64,000 nucleotides of DNA, taken from NCBI GenBank assembly GCA_013348845.1, contig CP054675.1, positions 1,497,501 to 1,561,500 on the forward strand, read 5' to 3'. Shown here piece by piece: positions 12,479-29,260 of this stretch. The position numbers and the translations under genes are program-made. The stretch's first letter is position 1; every line of letters starts with the position of its first letter. Source of the DNA: Candidatus Tepidiaquacella proteinivora (lineage in GTDB: Bacteria; Bacteroidota; Ignavibacteria; Tepidaquicellales; Tepidaquicellaceae). The notes below the pieces were generated by a model. It had not been told where the DNA came from, did no database searches, and saw nothing but the letters and a program-made list of their open reading frames with translations.

Positions 12479-13510
12479 CTAAATAACAACTTTTTCAAAC
12501 ATTTTTGCAAATTCTCTTTTCTTTCTTATCTTCCAATTACCTTTATGATACGCATAACCAGCAATAAGAGGCATGGCAATAGTTGCTTCTGAAAATACCA
12601 TTTGCTCATAGGTCGTATCCACTTTACCCCAGGAACTTGCTTCTTTCAAAGTAGAACCGGATAAAGCTCCATCTCTTTCATCTGCTACAGTTATTTGTAT
12701 TGCATATTTATGCATTGGAATATCCTGTCCTAAAACATCAGCAGCAACTACAACATCCTGAGTGAAATTCTTTGGTACTCCACCACCAATCATAAAAATT
12801 CCTGTCTCTATTGCTTCTATTTTAATTTTAGTTAACTCAAGAAAATCACGGGCAGAATCAATGGAAACATATTTTTCCGTGTTATGCCATTGATGATAAA
12901 CAAACCCAAAACCTGCAGAACAGTCAGAGAAAGCAGGTACAAATATAGGGACATTATTTTCATAAGAAGCAAGTACAATTGAGTCTTTATTTTTCGCTTT
13001 CTCAGCGAGATATTTACCCATATACCATATAAACTCACGAGATGAATAAGGTCTTTTTTCAAGGGAATCACAAATTTCAGCAACAGTCATATCACAAATT
13101 CTCAATTCATCCTCATCAATAAATGTATCATAGATTCTATCTATATGTAACTCCCTTAACTCATTATCATCTACAAAAGGAGTCCCTATATAATGTTTAA
13201 ATCCCAGACCCTCAAAAAAATCCTGATCAACAATTATTGCTCCTGTAGATACAATTACATCAACCATCTTATTCCTTATCAGGTCAACAACAACATTTTT
13301 CAAACCGGCAGAAACTAAAGAACCGGCAAGGCATAAAATAATTGAACATTTTTCATCTTTAATCATCAAATCATAAATTTCAGCAGCTTTATAAAGATTT
13401 CTTGCCTGAAAAGCCATATTTTTAAATGACTCTACCAATGGCACAACATTGTATTTCTTTATGTCAATATGTTCTATTGTGGTTTTTAAATAATCTTTTT
13501 TAGTTCTCAT
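12479..13510 (-). CDS. Deoxyhypusine synthase-like / homospermidine synthase-like enzyme
   Basis: A 343-residue NAD-dependent enzyme of the deoxyhypusine synthase family. The conserved SSWGK motif contains Lys296, equivalent to the lysine that carries the aminobutyl group in the eukaryotic enzyme, and VSTGAI and IGGGVPKNF match family signatures. Bacteria lack the eIF5A substrate; characterised bacterial members make polyamines such as homospermidine. The most likely role is therefore aminobutyl transfer from spermidine to a small amine. Cytoplasmic. It sits between mntP and the outer-membrane protein on the minus strand. Confidence 0.82.
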   Translation of the reverse strand: MRTKKDYLKTTIEHIDIKKYNVVPLVESFKNMAFQARNLYKAAEIYDLMIKDEKCSIILCLAGSLVSAGLKNVVVDLIRNKMVDVIVSTGAIIVDQDFFEGLGFKHYIGTPFVDDNELRELHIDRIYDTFIDEDELRICDMTVAEICDSLEKRPYSSREFIWYMGKYLAEKAKNKDSIVLASYENNVPIFVPAFSDCSAGFGFVYHQWHNTEKYVSIDSARDFLELTKIKIEAIETGIFMIGGGVPKNFTQDVVVAADVLGQDIPMHKYAIQITVADERDGALSGSTLKEASSWGKVDTTYEQMVFSEATIAMPLIAGYAYHKGNWKIRKKREFAKMFEKVVI

Positions 13511-15392: not shown

Positions 15393-16412
15393 TTATTCTG
15401 ATAATTTTTCATAAGCATCTATTATATCTCTTACCAATTTGTGTCTTACGACATCAGCACGGGTAAAGTAAACAAAAGAAATACCCTCTATATCTTTAAG
15501 TATTCTTTGAATTTCAACAAGCCCCGAATTACTTTTATTAGGTAAATCTATTTGGGTAATATCACCTGTAACAATTGCCTTTGAATTTACACCAAGTCGT
15601 GTAAGAAACATTTTCATTTGCAAAGAGGTAGAATTTTGAGCCTCATCAAGAATTACAAAAGCATTATTTAAAGTTCTTCCACGCATATATGCAAGCGGAA
15701 TTACTTCAATGGTATTTCTTTCAACATAAGTTTTCAGTTTTTCAAAAGGTATCATATCTTCCAACGCATCATACAATGGCCTTAGATAAGGATCGATTTT
15801 CTCGGTAAGGTCACCTGGAAGAAACCCAAGACTCTCTCCGGCTTCTACGGCGGGACGGGTTAACACAATTTTATTAACCTCTTTATTTTTCAAAGCAGCT
15901 ACAGCAAAAGCAACAGCAAGATAAGTTTTACCTGTACCGGCAGGACCAATGGCGAAAACGATATCATTTTCTTTTACTTTGCGATAATATTCATATTGGC
16001 CTTCAGAACGAGGTCTAATATATTCATTTTTTTTATATAATATAATATGATTTAAATCTGAAGTGTTTAATCCATATTTATCTTTGAATCTGTTCTGATC
16101 ATCTTTTTCATCAACTAAATCAAGTACGAGATTAATATCGTTTTCATTTATTTGTCCTTGTTTTTTGTATAGAAAAATTAATTCTTTAAAGACTTTCTCA
16201 ACTTTTTCAACTTCACTTTTTTCTCCCTTTATAAAAATATTTTGTCCCCTTAAAATAATCTTTGCATTAAAATTACTTCTAATAAGTTCAAGTTTTTCTT
16301 CTCTTACACCTGCAAAACTAATCACATCAATACCTATCAGATTTACCTCTCTTTGCGAATAATCATTATTTTCAAAGTCTTTTAATCCCGATGAATTTTT
16401 ATTTTCTTCTAT
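15393..16412 (-). CDS. PhoH-family ATPase, probable AUA start
   Basis: A PhoH-like P-loop ATPase associated with RNA metabolism. Walker A is GPAGTGKT (residues 156-163 in the long form), with VILDEAQN as Walker B. The first standard start is GTG at 16325, but that would cut off family-typical N-terminal sequence (EVNLIGIDVISFAGV). The frame stays open and codes plausibly back to ATA at 16410-16412, which has an excellent ribosome binding site, AGAAAGGAG, six bases upstream. The gene at 43651 has the same AGAAAGGAG leader in front of an ATG. I therefore place the start at the ATA (339 residues) and treat it as an AUA start or an ATG-to-ATA change. Confidence 0.82.
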   Translation of the reverse strand: MEENKNSSGLKDFENNDYSQREVNLIGIDVISFAGVREEKLELIRSNFNAKIILRGQNIFIKGEKSEVEKVEKVFKELIFLYKKQGQINENDINLVLDLVDEKDDQNRFKDKYGLNTSDLNHIILYKKNEYIRPRSEGQYEYYRKVKENDIVFAIGPAGTGKTYLAVAFAVAALKNKEVNKIVLTRPAVEAGESLGFLPGDLTEKIDPYLRPLYDALEDMIPFEKLKTYVERNTIEVIPLAYMRGRTLNNAFVILDEAQNSTSLQMKMFLTRLGVNSKAIVTGDITQIDLPNKSNSGLVEIQRILKDIEGISFVYFTRADVVRHKLVRDIIDAYEKLSE

Positions 16413-16427: not shown

Positions 16428-16919
16428 GTATTTTTTGTTAATAAATTTAAATTGATTAATTGAAAAATAAAAGCCGATATTTATTCATCAAATATTTTCA
16501 AATTTAATATATGTTGTTTTATCATAATTTTTTTTGCAAGTTTTTATTTTGTGCAATTTATTTCTCAATACAAATTATCTAATGATTTTATTAATATAAT
16601 CATCAAGACTTAAATAAAAAAGTAAACTAATAAATTCAACTTTAATAATTTACTCACTTTGTTTAATCATATATTTATTTTGAAAAATTATTTAAATATA
16701 TTTCGCTGTATAGTAGAACAATCTGATAACGTTGTATAAATATATTGTAATAATCTAAAGCAATAAGTATTTTTAAAATATAAAAGTTATAATATATCGT
16801 AAAATTGTATAAAACTTGAACCAAGTTTGATAATCTTATTTAAACAAATATTGAGATGCAATTAAAGTTTTGAGGCAATATGTTATTACAGATATTTATT
16901 GAAAAAAAATGATAATAGT
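16428..16919. other. AT-rich intergenic region between phoH and the carotenoid genes
   Basis: About 490 bases separate the divergent phoH and phytoene synthase genes, and they should hold both promoters. I found no open reading frame, RNA gene, strong hairpin or convincing TTG-N20-TAnnTTTG promoter. The base composition is extremely AT-rich, which makes hand prediction unreliable. Confidence 0.5.
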
Positions 16920-17762
16920 ATGAGTTATGAATTCTATTTAAGTAATTGTTATAAAATATCCAAACTTTTAACAAAAAATTATAGCACTTCTTTTTCTTTA
17001 GCAACTTCCCTTTTGAAAAGGGAACAAAGATATGCCATTTATGCTATTTACGGCTTCGTTCGAACTGCTGATGAAATTGTTGATAGTTTTCATAACTTTG
17101 AAAAAGAATTCTTATTGGAAAAATTATATCAGGATTTAAATTATGCATTAGAGAAGGGCATCAGCACAAATGTTGTACTAATGGCTTTTGCTGACACAGT
17201 GAGAAAATATAACATTAATAAAGATCATATTGATGCTTTTATGAACAGTATGAGAAAAGACTTGGATAAAAAATTATATCATAGCACAAATGAATTGAAG
17301 AGCTATATTTATGGTTCGGCAGATGTAGTAGGGTTAATGTGCCTGAAGGTATTTTGTGAAGGGAATGAATCTTTATATAATGAGTTAAAACATACCGCTC
17401 AGAAGTTAGGGTCTGCATTTCAAAAAGTTAATTTTATTCGTGATTTAAAGGATGATATAATGAAATTGGGTAGGAAATATTTTCCTGAAATTTCAAACAA
17501 TAATTTTGACGATAATACCAAAAAGCAGATAGAAGAATCAATAGAGAAAGATTTTAGTGAAGCCTTAAAGGGAATAAAAAAACTACCCGGGAGGTCTAAA
17601 ATTGCTGTTGCTTCTGCTTATTTTTACTTTATGGGAGTTTTTAAAAAAATTAAGCGCTCATCTCCGGAAAAACTGCTTACTCATAGAATTCGAATATCAA
17701 ACTTTAGAAAATATCTGATAATTATCAAGGTTGTAATAATGTATAAGTTAAAGCTTATTTAA
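16920..17762 (+). CDS. crtB: Phytoene synthase
   Basis: A 280-residue squalene/phytoene synthase family enzyme, joining two GGPP molecules into phytoene. The first aspartate-rich motif is DEIVD within VRTADEIVD, and the second lies in FIRDLKDD. The YSTSFSLAT segment near the N-terminus and the RKYFP segment are also typical. A TTG at 16899 would add seven residues, but the ATG at 16920 fits the family N-terminus better; neither has a clear ribosome binding site. It opens the carotenoid cluster, and desaturase-type genes downstream make phytoene synthase more likely than squalene synthase. Confidence 0.85.
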   Translation: MSYEFYLSNCYKISKLLTKNYSTSFSLATSLLKREQRYAIYAIYGFVRTADEIVDSFHNFEKEFLLEKLYQDLNYALEKGISTNVVLMAFADTVRKYNINKDHIDAFMNSMRKDLDKKLYHSTNELKSYIYGSADVVGLMCLKVFCEGNESLYNELKHTAQKLGSAFQKVNFIRDLKDDIMKLGRKYFPEISNNNFDDNTKKQIEESIEKDFSEALKGIKKLPGRSKIAVASAYFYFMGVFKKIKRSSPEKLLTHRIRISNFRKYLIIIKVVIMYKLKLI

Positions 17763-17953
17763 AGTAAAAATAAATTAATTTTTTTAATTTAAAACAATAA
17801 ATATTCATAAGACGGTTTCTTTAGAAAACATAACAATGGAATACATTATTAGAATTGGCAGAATAAATTTATATTTTTTAATTCATAAAAATTATTTACA
17901 AAATTATCATTTGAAACAAACAATGGGAAATTGCTAATTTAATTTCATTATAA

Positions 17954-18601
17954 ATGATATCGTTTGTTCAGAATAAGTTAGAACTATCCAAAACAAAAAC
18001 TTCTGTTATTACTTTCTATATTATTGGTCTTATAGGTTTTATAATTCCCAATACAAAAAATATTTTTTTAAAGACAACCCCTTATGTTTTATTATTAAGT
18101 ACTTTTTTAATTGGTCTTTATCATAAGAAATATAAGGAAAAAGAAATATTTGTATTTCTTCTGATTTTTGTCTTAGGATTTTTTATCGAAGTTATTGGAG
18201 TAAATACTTCTTTAATATTCGGTAGTTATACATACGGAAATAGTTTAGGTGTAAAAATTTTCAACACTCCTTTAATAATTGGTATTAACTGGCTGTTTTT
18301 AACATATACTTCGACTTCAATAGCTACAAAATTCAAGTTGAACAAGCTGTTTACTGTACTCATTGCTTCTACTCTAATGCTAATTTATGACTTCATATTA
18401 GAACAAGTTGCCCATAAAATGGATATGTGGAGTTGGGAAAATAATATAATACCTATTAAAAATTATATTTCATGGTGGTTAATAGGAATTGTGTTTGTCA
18501 GTTTTATTAAAATTTTTAACGTTGAAACTAAAAATCCTTTGGCTCTAACAATATTTATTTGTCAATTTCTATTCCTTATCATTCTATCTATAGTTTTATA
18601 A
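17954..18601 (+). CDS. Carotenoid biosynthesis membrane protein, CruF-like (DUF422)
   Basis: A 215-residue integral membrane protein with about seven hydrophobic segments. The conserved FIEVIGVNTSLIFGSYTYG block and the following PLIIGINWLF match the CruF/DUF422 family of carotenoid 1,2-hydratases, which add a hydroxyl to the acyclic end of a carotenoid. Its place between phytoene synthase and glycosyl/acyl transferases supports a role in making a 1'-hydroxylated carotenoid for later glycosylation. The exact substrate cannot be decided. It follows crtB by 191 AT-rich bases with no gene in them. Confidence 0.75.
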   Translation: MISFVQNKLELSKTKTSVITFYIIGLIGFIIPNTKNIFLKTTPYVLLLSTFLIGLYHKKYKEKEIFVFLLIFVLGFFIEVIGVNTSLIFGSYTYGNSLGVKIFNTPLIIGINWLFLTYTSTSIATKFKLNKLFTVLIASTLMLIYDFILEQVAHKMDMWSWENNIIPIKNYISWWLIGIVFVSFIKIFNVETKNPLALTIFICQFLFLIILSIVL

Positions 18602-18608
18602 TATAAAT

Positions 18609-19229
18609 ATGATTAAAACAAAACATCATTTTATAATCTATCCATTATTCAGATGGCTAACCCGTTATTTATTAAAGCGAAATTTTACATCTATTTCTAT
18701 AAACGGTAATTTCATCGACAATGGGAAAGCATTATTAGTTATTTCAAATCATATCAGTTGGTGGGATGGTTTCTGGGTTGAATATATAAATCAAAAGATA
18801 ATTCACAGGAAAATGTATTTTATGATGCTGGAAGATCAACTAAAAAAACATTGGTATTTTCAATATACAGGCGGATACTCAATTAAAAAAAAGTCAAAGG
18901 ATATAATAGAAAGTATTAATTATACAATTCAGTTATTAAAAGACCATCAAAATATTGTCCTTATGTTTCCGCAGGGTGAAATAAAATCAGTATATAATAA
19001 TATAATACATTTTGAGAACGGGATTAACAGAATTATCAAAGACTGCTCTCCGGATTTACAGGTGCTTTTTGTAGCCTGTTTTCCGGAATATCTATCTGAC
19101 CCAAAACCAAATGTATTTATATATTTAAAAAATTATTCTATAGAAAACTTAAGAAAAAGTAACATTGAAAGTGAGTATAATTTGTTTTTTAATGAAGCTT
19201 TAAATATGCAAAAATCAAAATCTATATGA
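18609..19229 (+). CDS. PlsC-like acyltransferase of the carotenoid cluster (CruD-like)
   Basis: A 206-residue lysophospholipid-acyltransferase-fold enzyme. The HX4D catalytic motif is His48 to Asp53 in NHISWWDG, and a second family motif with FPQGE appears further on. It sits between the CruF-like gene and a GT2 glycosyltransferase, whose ATG it overlaps by 4 bases (ATGA). That position suggests it acylates the sugar of a glycosyl carotenoid, as CruD does in green sulfur bacteria, but a phospholipid role is possible. Peripheral or membrane-associated. Confidence 0.7.
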   Translation: MIKTKHHFIIYPLFRWLTRYLLKRNFTSISINGNFIDNGKALLVISNHISWWDGFWVEYINQKIIHRKMYFMMLEDQLKKHWYFQYTGGYSIKKKSKDIIESINYTIQLLKDHQNIVLMFPQGEIKSVYNNIIHFENGINRIIKDCSPDLQVLFVACFPEYLSDPKPNVFIYLKNYSIENLRKSNIESEYNLFFNEALNMQKSKSI

Positions 19230-20320
19230 TTGAATTTTTGACATATATATCATTTGGATTTATTGGTATGCAGCTGGTAAATGTAGTCATTAACTTTATT
19301 TTCCTGGAAAAAATTGGAACTACTAAGATTTTAAATAAAAAACTTATTTCTGTTCTAATTCCGGCAAGAAATGAAGAAAAAAATATTGCTGATTTACTCT
19401 CTACTCTATCCAAAATAAAGAATGATAATTTAGAAATACTTGTTTATGACGATGAATCAACTGACAACACTGCAAAAATAGTAAAAAAGTTTTCTATTAA
19501 TGATAACCGGATTAAATTAATTAATCCAAATGCTCTACCTGAGAACTGGTTAGGGAAAAACCATGCTTGTTATCAACTCTCAAAAAAGGCAAGCGGTGAG
19601 TATTTCTTATTCATTGATGCTGATGTAAAATTGCATGGAAATATTATTTCTGATACAGTTTTTTATCTTGAAAAATATAATCTTGGTTTATTATCAATTT
19701 TTCCAATACAAATACAAAAAACAATAGGGGAAAAAGTTACAGTTCCAATTATGAATTATATTCTTCTTACATTACTTCCATTAATTTTAGTAAGGAAATC
19801 CCCGTTTAAATCACATTCTGCGGCAAACGGGCAGTTTATGTTGTTCAAATCTGATATTTATAGAAAATTCAGTCCTCATAAATTATTTAAGGATTGCTAT
19901 GTAGAAGATATTGTTATATCAAAATTTCTAAAAGAGCAAAAAATTAAAATAGCTTGTATTACGGGAGAAAACAGGGTAAAATGCAGAATGTATAATAATT
20001 ATAAAGAGGCATTAAATGGTTTTTCTAAAAATATTTTTATGTTCTATGGAAATAAACCAGCATTAGCATTTATTTTCTGGATATTTGCATGTTTTGGTTT
20101 TGTTCCTGTGCTAATATTTAAATATAGTTATCTTATAATTTATTTAACATTGATTGTTTTAATTCAAATACTTTATTCTATCATTGGCAAGCAAAATATA
20201 TTTTTAAACATAATATTTTTCCCATTGCATTTAATATTTATGTTACAAGTTATGATAAATGGGTTAAAAATTCAAAAAAATAAAATGTTTTTATGGAAAC
20301 AAAGAAATGTTTACCGATAA
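19226..20320 (+). CDS. GT2 glycosyltransferase of the carotenoid cluster (CruC/CrtQ-like)
   Basis: A 364-residue family 2 glycosyltransferase. The nucleotide-sugar-binding start VLIPARNEEKN is near residue 45, a DDEST motif follows, and the DxD metal motif is in FIDADV near 130. There is an N-terminal hydrophobic segment, and several C-terminal membrane helices (about 275-350), as in CruC and CrtQ proteins that glycosylate carotenoids. It overlaps the acyltransferase stop by 4 bases, so the two are almost certainly co-translated. Confidence 0.75.
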   Translation: MIEFLTYISFGFIGMQLVNVVINFIFLEKIGTTKILNKKLISVLIPARNEEKNIADLLSTLSKIKNDNLEILVYDDESTDNTAKIVKKFSINDNRIKLINPNALPENWLGKNHACYQLSKKASGEYFLFIDADVKLHGNIISDTVFYLEKYNLGLLSIFPIQIQKTIGEKVTVPIMNYILLTLLPLILVRKSPFKSHSAANGQFMLFKSDIYRKFSPHKLFKDCYVEDIVISKFLKEQKIKIACITGENRVKCRMYNNYKEALNGFSKNIFMFYGNKPALAFIFWIFACFGFVPVLIFKYSYLIIYLTLIVLIQILYSIIGKQNIFLNIIFFPLHLIFMLQVMINGLKIQKNKMFLWKQRNVYR

Positions 20321-20438
20321 TATTGTTCTTTACTTACTTCTTTTTATAAATTTAGAACACCAAGGATATAAAAAAAACTTTACTGAAATAATAACAAATT
20401 AAAATTTATAAAACTGAATTATTAAGAAAAAAAATCAA

Positions 20439-21923
20439 ATGAGCAAAGATGTATTAATTATAGGAACCGGGTTAGGCGGGTTAGCCACAGGATTAAGATT
20501 AGCAACAAGAGGATATAAAATAATTTTTATTGAAAAAGAATCACAACCCGGAGGACGCTTAAATCAAATAAAGAAAGAAGGGTTTACTTTCGATATTGGT
20601 CCGAGTTTTTTTAGCATGCCATACGAATTTGAAGAATTTGTTAAAAATTGTGGTATAAAAATGCCATTTGAATTTAATGAACTTGAACCAATTTATACTG
20701 TACATTTCAAAGGGAGTAATAAAAGATTTACTCTTTATAAAAACATTGATAAATTAAGTGCACAGTTTGAGAATATAGAACCTAATTTTAAATCAAGGTT
20801 CATTTCTTATTTAAATAAGTGCAAAGAGCTCTATTGGGACACAATTGATATCGTTATAAAGCGAAATTTTGATAGCGTTCCGGAATATCTTAAGTCGTTA
20901 ATACAAGTAAATCCCAAACACTTTCCGGTTTTATTTAAAACATTCTGGAAACAAACAGGAAAGTATTTTAAATCAAAAGAGGCAAGACAAATAATATCCC
21001 TGATCGCATTTTTTTTAGGCAGAACTCCTTTTGATACAAATGCGGTTTATACACTTTTATCTTATATTGAATTTTTAAATACCGGATATTATAACGTTAA
21101 AAACGGTATGTATACTATTGTACAAAGTATAGTAAATGAACTAAAAAAATTAAATGCATTATTTTATTACAATACAGAAATTGTAGATTTTAAAAGTGAT
21201 AACAATAAATTAACCGCTTTAATTGACCAAAATGGAAATAAATGGGAGGCAGATATTTTTGTAATTAATTCAGACGCTGCCTTCTTCAGAGGAAATGTGC
21301 TTAAGCGAAAACAATTTTCTGAGGATAGATTAAGAAAAATGAACTGGACAATGGGATATCTGACCATATATTTAGGAATAAGTAAAAAATTACCGCAAGT
21401 AGAACACCACAATTACTTTTTGGGAGACAATTATGAAGAATATTCTAAAGATATAATGGTAAATCCATATACACTTGAAAAGCCATATTATTATGTGAAT
21501 GTACTTTCAAAAAATAATAATTGCGCTCCAATTGGCTCTGAATCCTTAATTTTTGTCTGCCCTGTTCCTAACTTGCTTTATAAACCAGATTGGTCTGATA
21601 AAGAAGAAATTGTCAATAGTATAATTAATGATTTTTCGGAACGAATAGGTGAAAATATTTCAGATAAAATAGTCGTCAAATTATCATATACTCCGGAAGA
21701 TTGGCAAAACAAATTTAATTTATATAAAGGAGCTGGGTTAGGACTTTCGCATAAATTAAATCAAATAGGTGCTTTTCGTCCTAAAAACTACGATGAAATT
21801 TACAGGAATACTTTCTATGTAGGTGCTTCTACTATACCAGGTGCAGGCTTACCTATGTCAATCATTAGTTCAAAATTAGTCGTAGAAAGAATTTGTAATT
21901 ATGCAAAAGATTCTAAACAATAA
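20439..21923 (+). CDS. CrtI-family phytoene desaturase or carotenoid 3,4-desaturase
   Basis: A 494-residue FAD-dependent carotenoid oxidoreductase. The dinucleotide-binding motif GTGLGG is at residues 9-14, EKESQPGGR follows, and the FDIGPSFFSMP segment is diagnostic of the CrtI/CrtD family. The C-terminal YVGASTIPGAGLPM block is the FAD-binding signature. It could be the main phytoene desaturase or the CrtD-type enzyme that adds a double bond next to the CruF hydroxyl. The sequence alone does not separate these; as the only desaturase in the cluster, CrtI is a fair default. Confidence 0.8.
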   Translation: MSKDVLIIGTGLGGLATGLRLATRGYKIIFIEKESQPGGRLNQIKKEGFTFDIGPSFFSMPYEFEEFVKNCGIKMPFEFNELEPIYTVHFKGSNKRFTLYKNIDKLSAQFENIEPNFKSRFISYLNKCKELYWDTIDIVIKRNFDSVPEYLKSLIQVNPKHFPVLFKTFWKQTGKYFKSKEARQIISLIAFFLGRTPFDTNAVYTLLSYIEFLNTGYYNVKNGMYTIVQSIVNELKKLNALFYYNTEIVDFKSDNNKLTALIDQNGNKWEADIFVINSDAAFFRGNVLKRKQFSEDRLRKMNWTMGYLTIYLGISKKLPQVEHHNYFLGDNYEEYSKDIMVNPYTLEKPYYYVNVLSKNNNCAPIGSESLIFVCPVPNLLYKPDWSDKEEIVNSIINDFSERIGENISDKIVVKLSYTPEDWQNKFNLYKGAGLGLSHKLNQIGAFRPKNYDEIYRNTFYVGASTIPGAGLPMSIISSKLVVERICNYAKDSKQ

Positions 21924-22143: not shown

Positions 22144-22179
22144 AAAAAGCCCTTATGCAGGAATACATAAGGGCTTTTT
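22144..22179. terminator. Intrinsic terminator, bidirectional
   Basis: Perfect inverted repeat AAAAAGCCCTTATG / CATAAGGGCTTTTT with an 8-base loop, flanked by A on the left and T on the right. It lies just beyond the minus-strand LysM gene and can also stop transcription from the carotenoid cluster. Confidence 0.9.
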
Positions 22180-22197: not shown

Positions 22198-23100
22198 TTA
22201 ATTCTTCTTTTCGTCTTTCTTCTTTTCATCCTTCTTTACATCTTTCTTTTCGTCTTTCTTCTTTTCATCCTTCTTTACATCTTTCTTTTCGTCTTTCTTT
22301 ACATCTTTCTTTTCATCTTTCTTCACATCTTTCTTTTCTTCAGTTGCTTCTTTCTTTACAACTTTTCTTTTCTTGGGCCATTTGTTTTTGTATTTCTTGG
22401 TCTTTTCAACTGCTGCTTTAATACCATCTGGGGTCAAAGCTGGAATTACAAGAACTTGACCTGGATAAATTAAATTGGGGTTCTTAATGGTTTTAGGTAC
22501 TTTGGGTGGTGCAGCTTTTACACCTTCTTTATTCTTTTCCCAAATTGCAAACCATGCTTTTGGTTCTTTGTAGAATTTATCAGAAATTTTCCATAAGCAA
22601 TCACCTTTAACAACTGTGTATTCATCAGTTTTCTTTGGAGGATTCTTCCATGCATCTAATTCTTTTTTCATCTTTGCAATTCTTGCGGCATAATCACCAG
22701 TGCATTTGAAAGGACTTTTTTCAAGAGCTGCTAACATTTTTTCAGCTTCTTCCGGAGTCTTTCCTGATTTTTCTTTTTGGGTATTGATGATCTTTTCAGC
22801 TTCTTCGAAATTTTTCTTGTATGCAGCTGGATCACCATAAGATTTTAATTCATCTTCTGCTTTCTTAACCTTTTCATTCTTATCCTTCAAGGTTGCATCC
22901 AAGGCTTTAATCTCATTGTCGAGAGCCTTAATTTCTTCATTCAGATTAGAAATTGTTTGTTCATATTCACTTTTCTCCTGTAGATATTGTTCTTCGGTAT
23001 AGTTTTCCCATGGTTCTTCTTCCTGGGCGTATGCGGAATAAGCAAAACCGAAAATCAAGGAGAAAGCGAATAATACGATTAACAATTTGTGTAACTTCAT
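22198..23100 (-). CDS. Secreted LysM protein with a highly charged repetitive tail
   Basis: A 300-residue exported protein with a signal peptide (about residues 1-25, ending AYAQ), a coiled-coil region (about 30-150, heptad-rich NEEIKALDNEIKALD), and one LysM peptidoglycan-binding domain (about 160-223) with YTVVKGDCLWKISDKFY and PNLIYPGQVLVIP. A lysine/aspartate/glutamate-rich tail of KKDEKKDV repeats fills about 250-300. It has a ribosome binding site AAAGGAG. It lies downstream of the coiled-coil lipoprotein gene, 52 bases apart, probably in one transcript. The combination points to a periplasmic structural role at the peptidoglycan. Confidence 0.8.
   Translation of the reverse strand: MKLHKLLIVLFAFSLIFGFAYSAYAQEEEPWENYTEEQYLQEKSEYEQTISNLNEEIKALDNEIKALDATLKDKNEKVKKAEDELKSYGDPAAYKKNFEEAEKIINTQKEKSGKTPEEAEKMLAALEKSPFKCTGDYAARIAKMKKELDAWKNPPKKTDEYTVVKGDCLWKISDKFYKEPKAWFAIWEKNKEGVKAAPPKVPKTIKNPNLIYPGQVLVIPALTPDGIKAAVEKTKKYKNKWPKKRKVVKKEATEEKKDVKKDEKKDVKKDEKKDVKKDEKKKDEKKDVKKDEKKKDEKKN
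22199..22340. repeat. Tandem coding repeats for the KKDEKKDV tail
   Basis: Several near-identical units of about 24 bases (plus-strand core CTTTACATCTTTCTTTTCGT) encode the charged tail of the LysM protein. The repeat number is likely to vary by slippage, changing tail length without breaking the frame when whole units are lost or gained. Confidence 0.8.
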
Positions 23101-23152
23101 TTTCTTTAATCTCCTTTTTAAATTTTTAAAACTTTTTGGTTAATGAAATGGA

Positions 23153-23416
23153 TTACTTACAATTCTTAAGAGTTTCAATATCCTTCTGTAACTTATTCAA
23201 CTGGTCATCTTTTTGCTTAATTTGTCCTTCAATCTTCTTCTTTTCACTTTCCTTTGTTGCTTTTTCATTCTCTAAGGATTTGATTTGTTCCTTAAGATTT
23301 TGTAATTCATTCCATTGCTCTTGCGTTATTCCGCCACCACATCCAGTCAAGAATACAGAACCGGAAATGAACGCGGAGCACAACAGAATGAGTGACATCT
23401 TTTTTAGTCTTGCCAT
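23153..23416 (-). CDS. Small coiled-coil lipoprotein with C-terminal lysine
   Basis: An 87-residue lipoprotein. The lipobox FLTGC gives lipid-modified Cys26, leaving a mature chain of 62 residues: a short GGG linker, then an unbroken heptad-type coiled coil (LKEQIKSLENEK and following), ending in Asn-Cys-Lys. Length, architecture and terminal lysine resemble Braun's lipoprotein, though I see no sequence homology to Lpp. Translation starts after a near-perfect AGGAGGT site eight bases upstream. A good promoter precedes it, and the LysM gene follows on the same strand. An abundant outer-membrane structural lipoprotein is the likely role. Confidence 0.75.
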   Translation of the reverse strand: MARLKKMSLILLCSAFISGSVFLTGCGGGITQEQWNELQNLKEQIKSLENEKATKESEKKKIEGQIKQKDDQLNKLQKDIETLKNCK

Positions 23417-23469: not shown

Positions 23470-23500
23470 CAAATATATACTATATAATTTTACTTGTCAA
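23470..23500 (-). promoter_or_regulatory. Promoter of the lipoprotein-LysM operon
   Basis: On the minus strand TTGACA (23495-23500) is followed by TATATTTG (23470-23477), with 20 bases between the TTG and the downstream box. This fits the Bacteroidota TTG / TAnnTTTG promoter and also a sigma70-type TTGACA-N17-TATATT promoter. The expected transcription start is about 45 bases upstream of the lipoprotein ATG. Confidence 0.65.
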
Positions 23501-28342: not shown

Positions 28343-29260
28343 TTATTTTACAAGTACCATTTTTCTTGTTTCAACATAACTGTCTGCAAACAACCTATAA
28401 TAATAAATGCCAGATGGAAGGTTAGTTGCATCGAATTTATATTCATAAGTTCCCGCTTCTTTATCACCTTCTTCAAGAACTAATATTTCCTGACCAATAG
28501 AATTATATACTGCAAGTTTAACAGTACTTTTCTTAGGAATGTCAAATCTGATTGTTGTTGTTGGATTAAATGGATTAGGATAATTTTGTTTTAGTTCATA
28601 AGTTCTTGGAATACCATTTCCAATTTTAGTTACCCCAGCAGGATTACCAACAAACACATCATCAACAAAAACACAAAAACCATCATTCACACAATCCATA
28701 TAATATCTGAATCCGATCCAAATATTTGCTGAACCAGTAAACAACGCCAAACTATATGTGTATTGTTGAAAATTACCATAGGTAGAACCGGAGGGCCATA
28801 CAATCGTGCCAAGGTGGTCAAGGAAACTATAAGTATTTGAATCAGTTGTGCTAACCCAAATTTGTAAACTATCGCCCCAGGCAGGACTACCGCCGCATGC
28901 CCAGAATTTGAGAACATCAGTAGATTCAATATTACTGACACGCTTTGTAATTAACCATGCATCAGAAGTGTTATAACTACTATTATTAGTATCAACTCCG
29001 CACCACCAGGAAGCCATACAAGATTTAATTCCCGAATGAGCAACAGCCCTTGCTGTAGCTAAACCAGGAATATATTTCCCTGTATCACGGACAGTCCAAT
29101 TTGCCCACGGGTCAATAGGATACGTAGCATTATTTACACGTGACCAACCGGGAGGGAGATTTAAAGAATCACTTGTTTCAAAACCTTCCTGAAGTTTAAT
29201 TTGAGAAAATACACTTACAGAAAAAGCTAGAATAAAAACTAATAAGAATAATTTCTTCAT
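28343..29260 (-). CDS. T9SS cargo protein with choice-of-anchor-J-like domain
   Basis: A 305-residue secreted protein with a signal peptide (residues 1-19), a lectin-like jelly-roll domain (about 20-210; segments GLATARAVAHSG, SDAWLITKRV and VFVDDVFVGN fit choice-of-anchor J), and a C-terminal type A sorting domain (about 220-305) beginning QNYPNPFNPTTTI and ending RKMVLVK. The sorting domain should direct it through the type IX secretion system to the cell surface or medium. A clear AAAGGAG site lies seven bases before the ATG. Confidence 0.8.
   Translation of the reverse strand: MKKLFLLVFILAFSVSVFSQIKLQEGFETSDSLNLPPGWSRVNNATYPIDPWANWTVRDTGKYIPGLATARAVAHSGIKSCMASWWCGVDTNNSSYNTSDAWLITKRVSNIESTDVLKFWACGGSPAWGDSLQIWVSTTDSNTYSFLDHLGTIVWPSGSTYGNFQQYTYSLALFTGSANIWIGFRYYMDCVNDGFCVFVDDVFVGNPAGVTKIGNGIPRTYELKQNYPNPFNPTTTIRFDIPKKSTVKLAVYNSIGQEILVLEEGDKEAGTYEYKFDATNLPSGIYYYRLFADSYVETRKMVLVK

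Follow-up and report, generated by a model that had tools for sequence, protein, structure and literature searches.

Attachment of the outer membrane to the cell wall is known from few systems, the outer-membrane tethers named in the excerpt of PMC10628300 being Lpp, Pal, OmpA and OmpM. The length of Lpp is given as about 7.5 nm in the excerpt of PMC8824477. Outside Proteobacteria, an abundant small lipoprotein of Methylacidiphilum with a conserved C-terminal lysine has been proposed as an Lpp-like tether (PMC10260701, excerpt), and the lipoprotein PapS carries an OmpA-like domain (PMC11369160, excerpt). The excerpts of PMC12204202 and PMC9012183 had no bearing on a lipoprotein–LysM gene pair of the type analysed here, and no description of such a pair was found among the matches listed in the open-licence PubMed Central literature.

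The locus compared with described tethers

The window (the whole stretch of 64,000 nucleotides analysed) contains a gene for a coiled-coil lipoprotein (LP), followed after 52 nt by a gene for a secreted protein with a coiled coil and a LysM domain (the LysM protein; Table 1). The original prediction, made from the sequence of the window, described a 62-residue mature coiled-coil lipoprotein ending in lysine, next to a protein combining a coiled coil, a LysM domain and a charged repetitive tail. Both descriptions were correct. The mature LP, preceded by an LTGC lipobox, runs from CGGG to a C-terminal NCK and has a heptad pattern; the LysM protein matched the Pfam LysM model PF01476 (32.5 bits, cut-off 20.9), had a corresponding AlphaFold2 model and ended in a tandem repeat. 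This Lys-rich tail was absent from the more distant LysM-protein relatives aligned. The promoter-like element upstream of LP is suggestive only, because the scan of the region found such elements at the level expected by chance (8 found, 8.1 expected).

Table 1. Features of the LP–LysM locus, with positions in the window
Feature	Position	Strand	Basis
LP gene (coiled-coil lipoprotein), 87 aa, mature 62 aa	23153..23416	-	ORF list and relatives
LysM-protein gene (secreted coiled-coil/LysM protein), 300 aa	22198..23100	-	ORF list, PF01476, AlphaFold2
Lipid-anchor cysteine, LP residue 26, lipobox LTGC	23339..23341	-	Sequence; Cys in 146/146 aligned LPs
LP coil, mature residues 7-58, Leu/Ile/Val at most a/d heptad positions	23168..23323	-	Heptad analysis; helix in L104
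LP Cys at mature residue 61 (residue 86), putative partner of LysM-protein Cys133	23159..23161	-	Covariation; weakest of four sites
LysM-protein signal peptide, residues 1-25, cleavage AYA/Q by eye	23026..23100	-	Sequence; predicted helix 3-24
LysM-protein N-terminal coil, residues 36-87, putative in-register zip with LP coil	22840..22995	-	Coevolution, heptads, AlphaFold2
Short helices, residues 91-152, coil-to-LysM linker of the LysM protein	22645..22830	-	AlphaFold2
LysM-protein Cys133, putative partner of LP Cys61	22702..22704	-	Covariation; its equivalent is the sole LysM-protein Cys in L067
LysM domain, residues 161-221, long insert preceding second strand	22438..22620	-	PF01476, E 8.5e-8; AlphaFold2
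Cys168 of the DCLW motif, in 111/146 relatives, no covariation with LP	22597..22599	-	Control site
Lys-rich repetitive tail, residues 237-300, low confidence	22201..22392	-	Repeat analysis, AlphaFold2
Promoter-like TTGACA-17-TATATT 5' of the pair, 11/12 matches	23472..23500	-	Scan; suggestive only
Strong terminator-like hairpin closing the pair, 16-pair stem	22144..22179	-	Sequence

A plus-strand block (16899-21923) with genes resembling, by eye, those for carotenoid synthesis or modification separates the LysM gene from a PhoH-like gene (15393-16325), and in the relatives L062, L068, L071 and L078 a PhoH-like gene is found close behind the LysM gene. Elsewhere in the window, the product of 28343-29260 has, by eye, a signal-like start and an end resembling the C-terminal sorting domain of type IX secretion.

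The LP resembles Lpp/OprI, being likewise a short coiled-coil rod anchored by a lipid and of comparable length, and it ends in lysine in this genome. It differs in its scores with the Lpp/OprI model NF040598 (19.8 bits, cut-off 43) and with PRK15396 (14.7 bits, cut-off 108), and in having a core of Leu, Ile or Val at most a/d positions rather than an alanine zipper, a terminal lysine that is not conserved, a partner gene and covarying cysteines. No Lpp family was present among the best 25 of the 28 Pfam matches of the LP, and its matches to other coiled-coil families (phage scaffold, SMC, Rad50 and others), all below cut-off, were set aside as generic coil matches. The proposed pair is like Pal and OmpA, which are anchored by a lipid or a barrel and bind peptidoglycan non-covalently through a domain (PF00691), but the anchor would be on one chain and the domain for wall binding, a LysM domain, on another; PF00691 matched neither the LysM protein nor, among its best 25 of 28 matches, the LP. 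OmpM, the SLH-domain tether of Terrabacteria (PMC10628300, excerpt), likewise falls outside the Lpp/Pal/OmpA set, but the SLH domain (PF00395) had no match in any of 59 genomes, that of the window included, and neither the LP nor the LysM protein looks barrel-like. The Methylacidiphilum lipoprotein is unlike the pair in that LysM is unmentioned in PMC10260701, according to which the organism has pal and ompA. The C-terminal LysM domain is common to the LysM protein, Kbp/YgaU (PRK11198) and other LysM proteins, and the PDB sequence matches of the LysM protein were LysM-domain proteins, including Kbp. The LysM protein is nevertheless unlike Kbp: it scored 35.6 bits with PRK11198 (cut-off 134), gave no Pfam match to the BON domain, is secreted and has a coil. 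LysM domains are known in general to bind peptidoglycan, and this protein would be expected to do the same on the basis of its family.

The AlphaFold2 model of the window's LysM protein (mean pLDDT 83.5) comprised a helix at residues 36-87, short helices at 91-152, the LysM domain at 159-219 and a tail of low confidence, with 10-residue pLDDT means of 96-98 for residues 41-80 and 95-98 for the strands and helices of the LysM domain. Structure prediction of the pair, suggested in the original prediction, was performed on a natural LP-stop-LysM read-through of the relative L104, folded as one chain and evaluated by its confidence values only (mean pLDDT 77.9, pTM 0.53). Both coils were predicted with high confidence, the LP as a helix at residues 7-66 (10-residue means of 95-98 over residues 11-60) and the LysM coil with means of 93-98, but contact between LP and LysM protein is unproven by this model. 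Foldseek searches of the PDB with both models gave no match at E 0.001 or better; the structural neighbours of the read-through model included PcsB (ranks 1-2), EnvC (rank 6) and RipA (rank 7), all weak, with a best E of 6.4e-3.

Distribution and pairing of the two genes

Among 59 genomes, that of the window included, a LysM-protein match was obtained in 51 and an LP match in 54. Across 395 sampled genomes of the phylum, LysM-protein relatives were present in 94 of the 98 class genomes, with E values of 3.3e-48 or better (that of G388 being a contig-end fragment), and the other four class genomes were listed without a match. Outside the class, four genomes, all from family f25, had matches at E 1e-56 or better; the other 96 matching non-class genomes did so at E 3.8e-22 or weaker, the matches covering mainly the LysM domain among the places listed. 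The named records with near full-length LysM-protein matches were mostly Ignavibacteria or Bacteroidetes metagenome bins, and one Kapabacteria, one Zixibacteria and one Gemmatimonadaceae record combined such a match with an LP-like gene upstream.

An LP gene lay immediately upstream, on the same strand, of 154 of the 168 LysM ORFs recovered (156 loci, repeats included). Removal of the repeats left 146 LP–LysM pairs for alignments and counts, with gaps between the two genes of -4 to 138 nt (median 30). The gene pair is beyond chance, since LP and LysM relatives are neighbours throughout the class. In 143 of the 146 LPs, the main site of the coil fell at position 50 or 51 of the mature protein, as expected of a rod of constant length. 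In L078, a second LP copy (13143-13403) is ended early by an in-frame stop, and its LysM partner retains Cys133.

Cysteine covariation and coil register

The LP and LysM proteins of the 146 pairs were aligned separately, and a tree was built with all cysteines masked. LP Cys51 and a cysteine at the end of the partner's coil were concordant in all 146 pairs (102 with both, 44 with neither). The same was true of LP C30 and a mid-coil cysteine of the partner (both present in five pairs), each located exactly 21 residues before the main site. A cysteine at LP positions C2-C4 and one just before the partner's coil were concordant in 145 of 146 pairs (12 with both; exception L134), with spacings to the main site of 47-48 residues in the LP and 44-45 in the LysM protein, close to but not exactly in register. 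Finally, C61/62 of the LP and C133 of the partner were concordant in 144 of 146 pairs, C133 being present with all 31 LPs that have this cysteine; the exceptions were L071, in which the aligned cysteine is one position off, and L078_13476, the second copy, in which the LP stops before the site. The window's own pair uses C61/C133, the weakest of the four site pairs.

The changes on the tree, given for the LP and LysM sides, were 6/6 for C51, 2/2 for C30, 4/5 for C2-C4 and 2/2 for C61, and random placement of the LysM-side changes reached the observed fit in 0, 4, 0 and 164 of 20000 trials, respectively. None of the per-site sign tests reached 0.05, there being few events on the tree; pooling over the sites (11/11) would give p 0.001, but the sites are not independent. 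As a control, we used the cysteine of the DCLW motif in the LysM protein, at a position at which the LysM motif usually reads DTLW. This cysteine changed 16 times on the tree and followed no LP cysteine. An intramolecular disulfide between C133 and C168 was considered and is disfavoured, as L063 and L067 lose the DCLW cysteine and keep C133. C133 need not pair within its own chain, because in L067 it is the only cysteine of the LysM protein and C61 is the only non-lipid cysteine of the LP.

We also considered 13 LysM paralogues without an adjacent LP gene, the cysteine sites of which matched those expected from the LP of the lineage. All 13 had C133; a coil-end cysteine was present in the six of sister-family type, matching C51 of the sister-family LP, and in none of the other seven, among which the own LP sequence of one named record (L103) was not included. 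In the window's genome, a LysM paralogue with an N-terminal CysCys closes a three-gene run on the same strand (L081 2343-6769, at about 1.916-1.921 Mb). The run, which was also found beside the CysCys paralogue in L099, L062, L068 and L061, encodes proteins of about 400 aa, of about 300 aa with a hydrophobic stretch at the N terminus and of about 410-480 aa with a signal-like start. The first two recall, by eye, a GldL/GldM-type motor pair, and the copies tested of the three kinds of protein had no Pfam or NCBIfam match over the cut-off. In L061, L062 and L068, the run lies near the LP–LysM pair, behind a PhoH-like gene.

With the main cysteine site set as d, the LP displayed a strong a/d pattern, with polar residues at offsets -7 and -17, and the LysM coil had a weaker pattern in the same phase. 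The d position was likewise that of C30 and its partner. Coevolution of the a/d core layers, calculated without the two Cys columns, was 0.052 at shift 0 and between -0.020 and 0.022 at the other shifts (seven were tried: 0 and 7, 14 and 21 either way). No within-clade shuffle of 40 reached the shift-0 signal at any of three clade thresholds, the shuffles retaining 40-69% of the core-layer signal on average. When all positions were used, shift 0 outscored every other parallel register but was exceeded by two antiparallel offsets, each with fewer pairs, and charge covariance by register was uninformative. A gap-free hhalign match between the two coils (P 8.9e-8) was set aside, as the Cys column had been used to trim both stretches and coils generally match one another.

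Envelope context and possible role of the pair

The genome has five Omp85 matches, so the host is probably diderm. No OmpA/Pal domain (PF00691) was found in this genome, which is one of 18 of the 59 lacking a match, and all 18 have both the LP and the LysM gene. Of the remaining 41, with OmpA-domain proteins, 33 also match both the LP and the LysM protein, and the pair is therefore not simply a substitute for Pal/OmpA. PF00691 was missing from 17 of the 29 genomes of the window's family (G000-G028) and present in all 15 of the sister family, a gap that may reflect recent loss or strong divergence. No standard tether was thus found in the genome, which suits a tether role for the pair without proving it. 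The oxidant families DSBA, VKOR and Thioredoxin_4 were not found in the window's genome (G000), and were present in five, six and five of the 59 genomes, respectively; a disulfide here would therefore need another oxidant, or oxygen. The cysteine parity of other exported-like proteins (LysM family excluded) lends disulfides weak support (two versus one cysteine, p 0.008; even versus odd, p 0.42).

We propose, with a probability of about 0.6, that the two proteins form a parallel, in-register coiled-coil tether, probably locked by a disulfide, with the LysM domain on the wall. The LP would be held by its lipidated Cys26 in a membrane, most probably the outer membrane, and its rod would pair with the LysM protein's N-terminal coil. 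Running alongside each other away from the membrane over about 50 residues, the two chains would span about 7.5-8 nm (0.15 nm per residue), which is comparable to the figure given for Lpp. Facing cysteines would probably lock them together, C51 with the coil-end cysteine in most of the class and C61 with C133 in the window's family, and the C-terminal LysM domain would hold peptidoglycan at the far end. Such a pair would work like an Lpp or Pal tether split over two proteins. Direct contact between LP and LysM protein is very likely, a tether role is quite probable, and a disulfide between the two is likely. The extension of this proposal to the class as a whole, with an outer-membrane LP disulfide-joined across a heteromeric coil to a wall-binding LysM protein, is tentative, at somewhat less than even odds. 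The idea in the original prediction of a partnership tethering membrane to wall is thus strengthened by the class-wide pairing, the in-register cysteine covariation and the lack of a detected Pal/OmpA domain; the Lpp-style lysine route that it offered for the LP is not supported.

In that route, an L,D-transpeptidase would join the C-terminal lysine of the LP to peptidoglycan, and the LysM protein would be a separate wall protein. The L,D-transpeptidase search that had been recommended returned two YkuD domains over the cut-off, an unspecific result; 56 of the 59 genomes have at least one. Such a bond is chemically possible, as the enzyme domains are encoded. A terminal lysine is also commoner in LPs (77/146) than in other ORFs (100/636). 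However, the LysM partners share this excess (67/146), 69 of the 146 LPs have another final residue (among the 31 with Cys61, 14 do so and 17 have the lysine), the Lpp/OprI and PRK15396 models score far below their cut-offs, and the cysteine covariation would be left unexplained. The sequences do not ask for a direct bond to peptidoglycan, rather favouring attachment of the LP to its LysM partner, and we consider a Braun-type linkage very improbable. Regulation of peptidoglycan enzymes by the pair, as a coiled-coil activator like EnvC, NlpD or PcsB rather than a structural tether, is quite improbable: PcsB, EnvC and RipA are structural neighbours, but below the level of a firm match, the PDB sequence matches point to LysM-domain proteins instead, and no LytM, CHAP or amidase domain was matched in Pfam by the LysM protein or, among its best 25 of 28 matches, by the LP.

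The covariation itself could arise if the LP and the LysM protein were each disulfide-linked with themselves and acted in one pathway, their cysteines being lost and gained together. Gene pairing alone is no proof of contact, and a cysteine at a d position also suits a homodimer. This explanation is rather improbable, given that the two cysteines of the C30 pair occupy matching registers in their chains (spacing 21 in each), that in-register coevolution of the core layers is seen with the Cys columns excluded and that the DCLW cysteine stays in the 15 of 146 pairs that lack C51, C61 and the partners of both (five of the 15 carrying the C30 or C3 pair). A heteromeric, in-register coil without a disulfide, its cysteines being reduced and serving in packing or metal binding and the tether being non-covalent, would accommodate both the failure to detect DSBA, VKOR and Thioredoxin_4 here and in most relatives and the retention of the pair in lineages without any coil cysteine, such as L242. 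It is nonetheless unlikely, as packing alone would hardly account for four matched pairs of cysteine sites, two of which share a heptad position.

The disulfide-locked, two-protein tether, if real, would be a third type of strap between membrane and wall, beside the amide bond of Lpp and the non-covalent grip of Pal and OmpA, and it could be redox-reversible. It could stand in for Pal/OmpA where no OmpA-like domain was found, as in the lineage of the window, and the pair is a candidate tether for such lineages. As a conserved pair in a poorly studied class, with cysteines providing a built-in contact map, it makes the question of how the outer membrane is attached to the wall in these bacteria directly testable.
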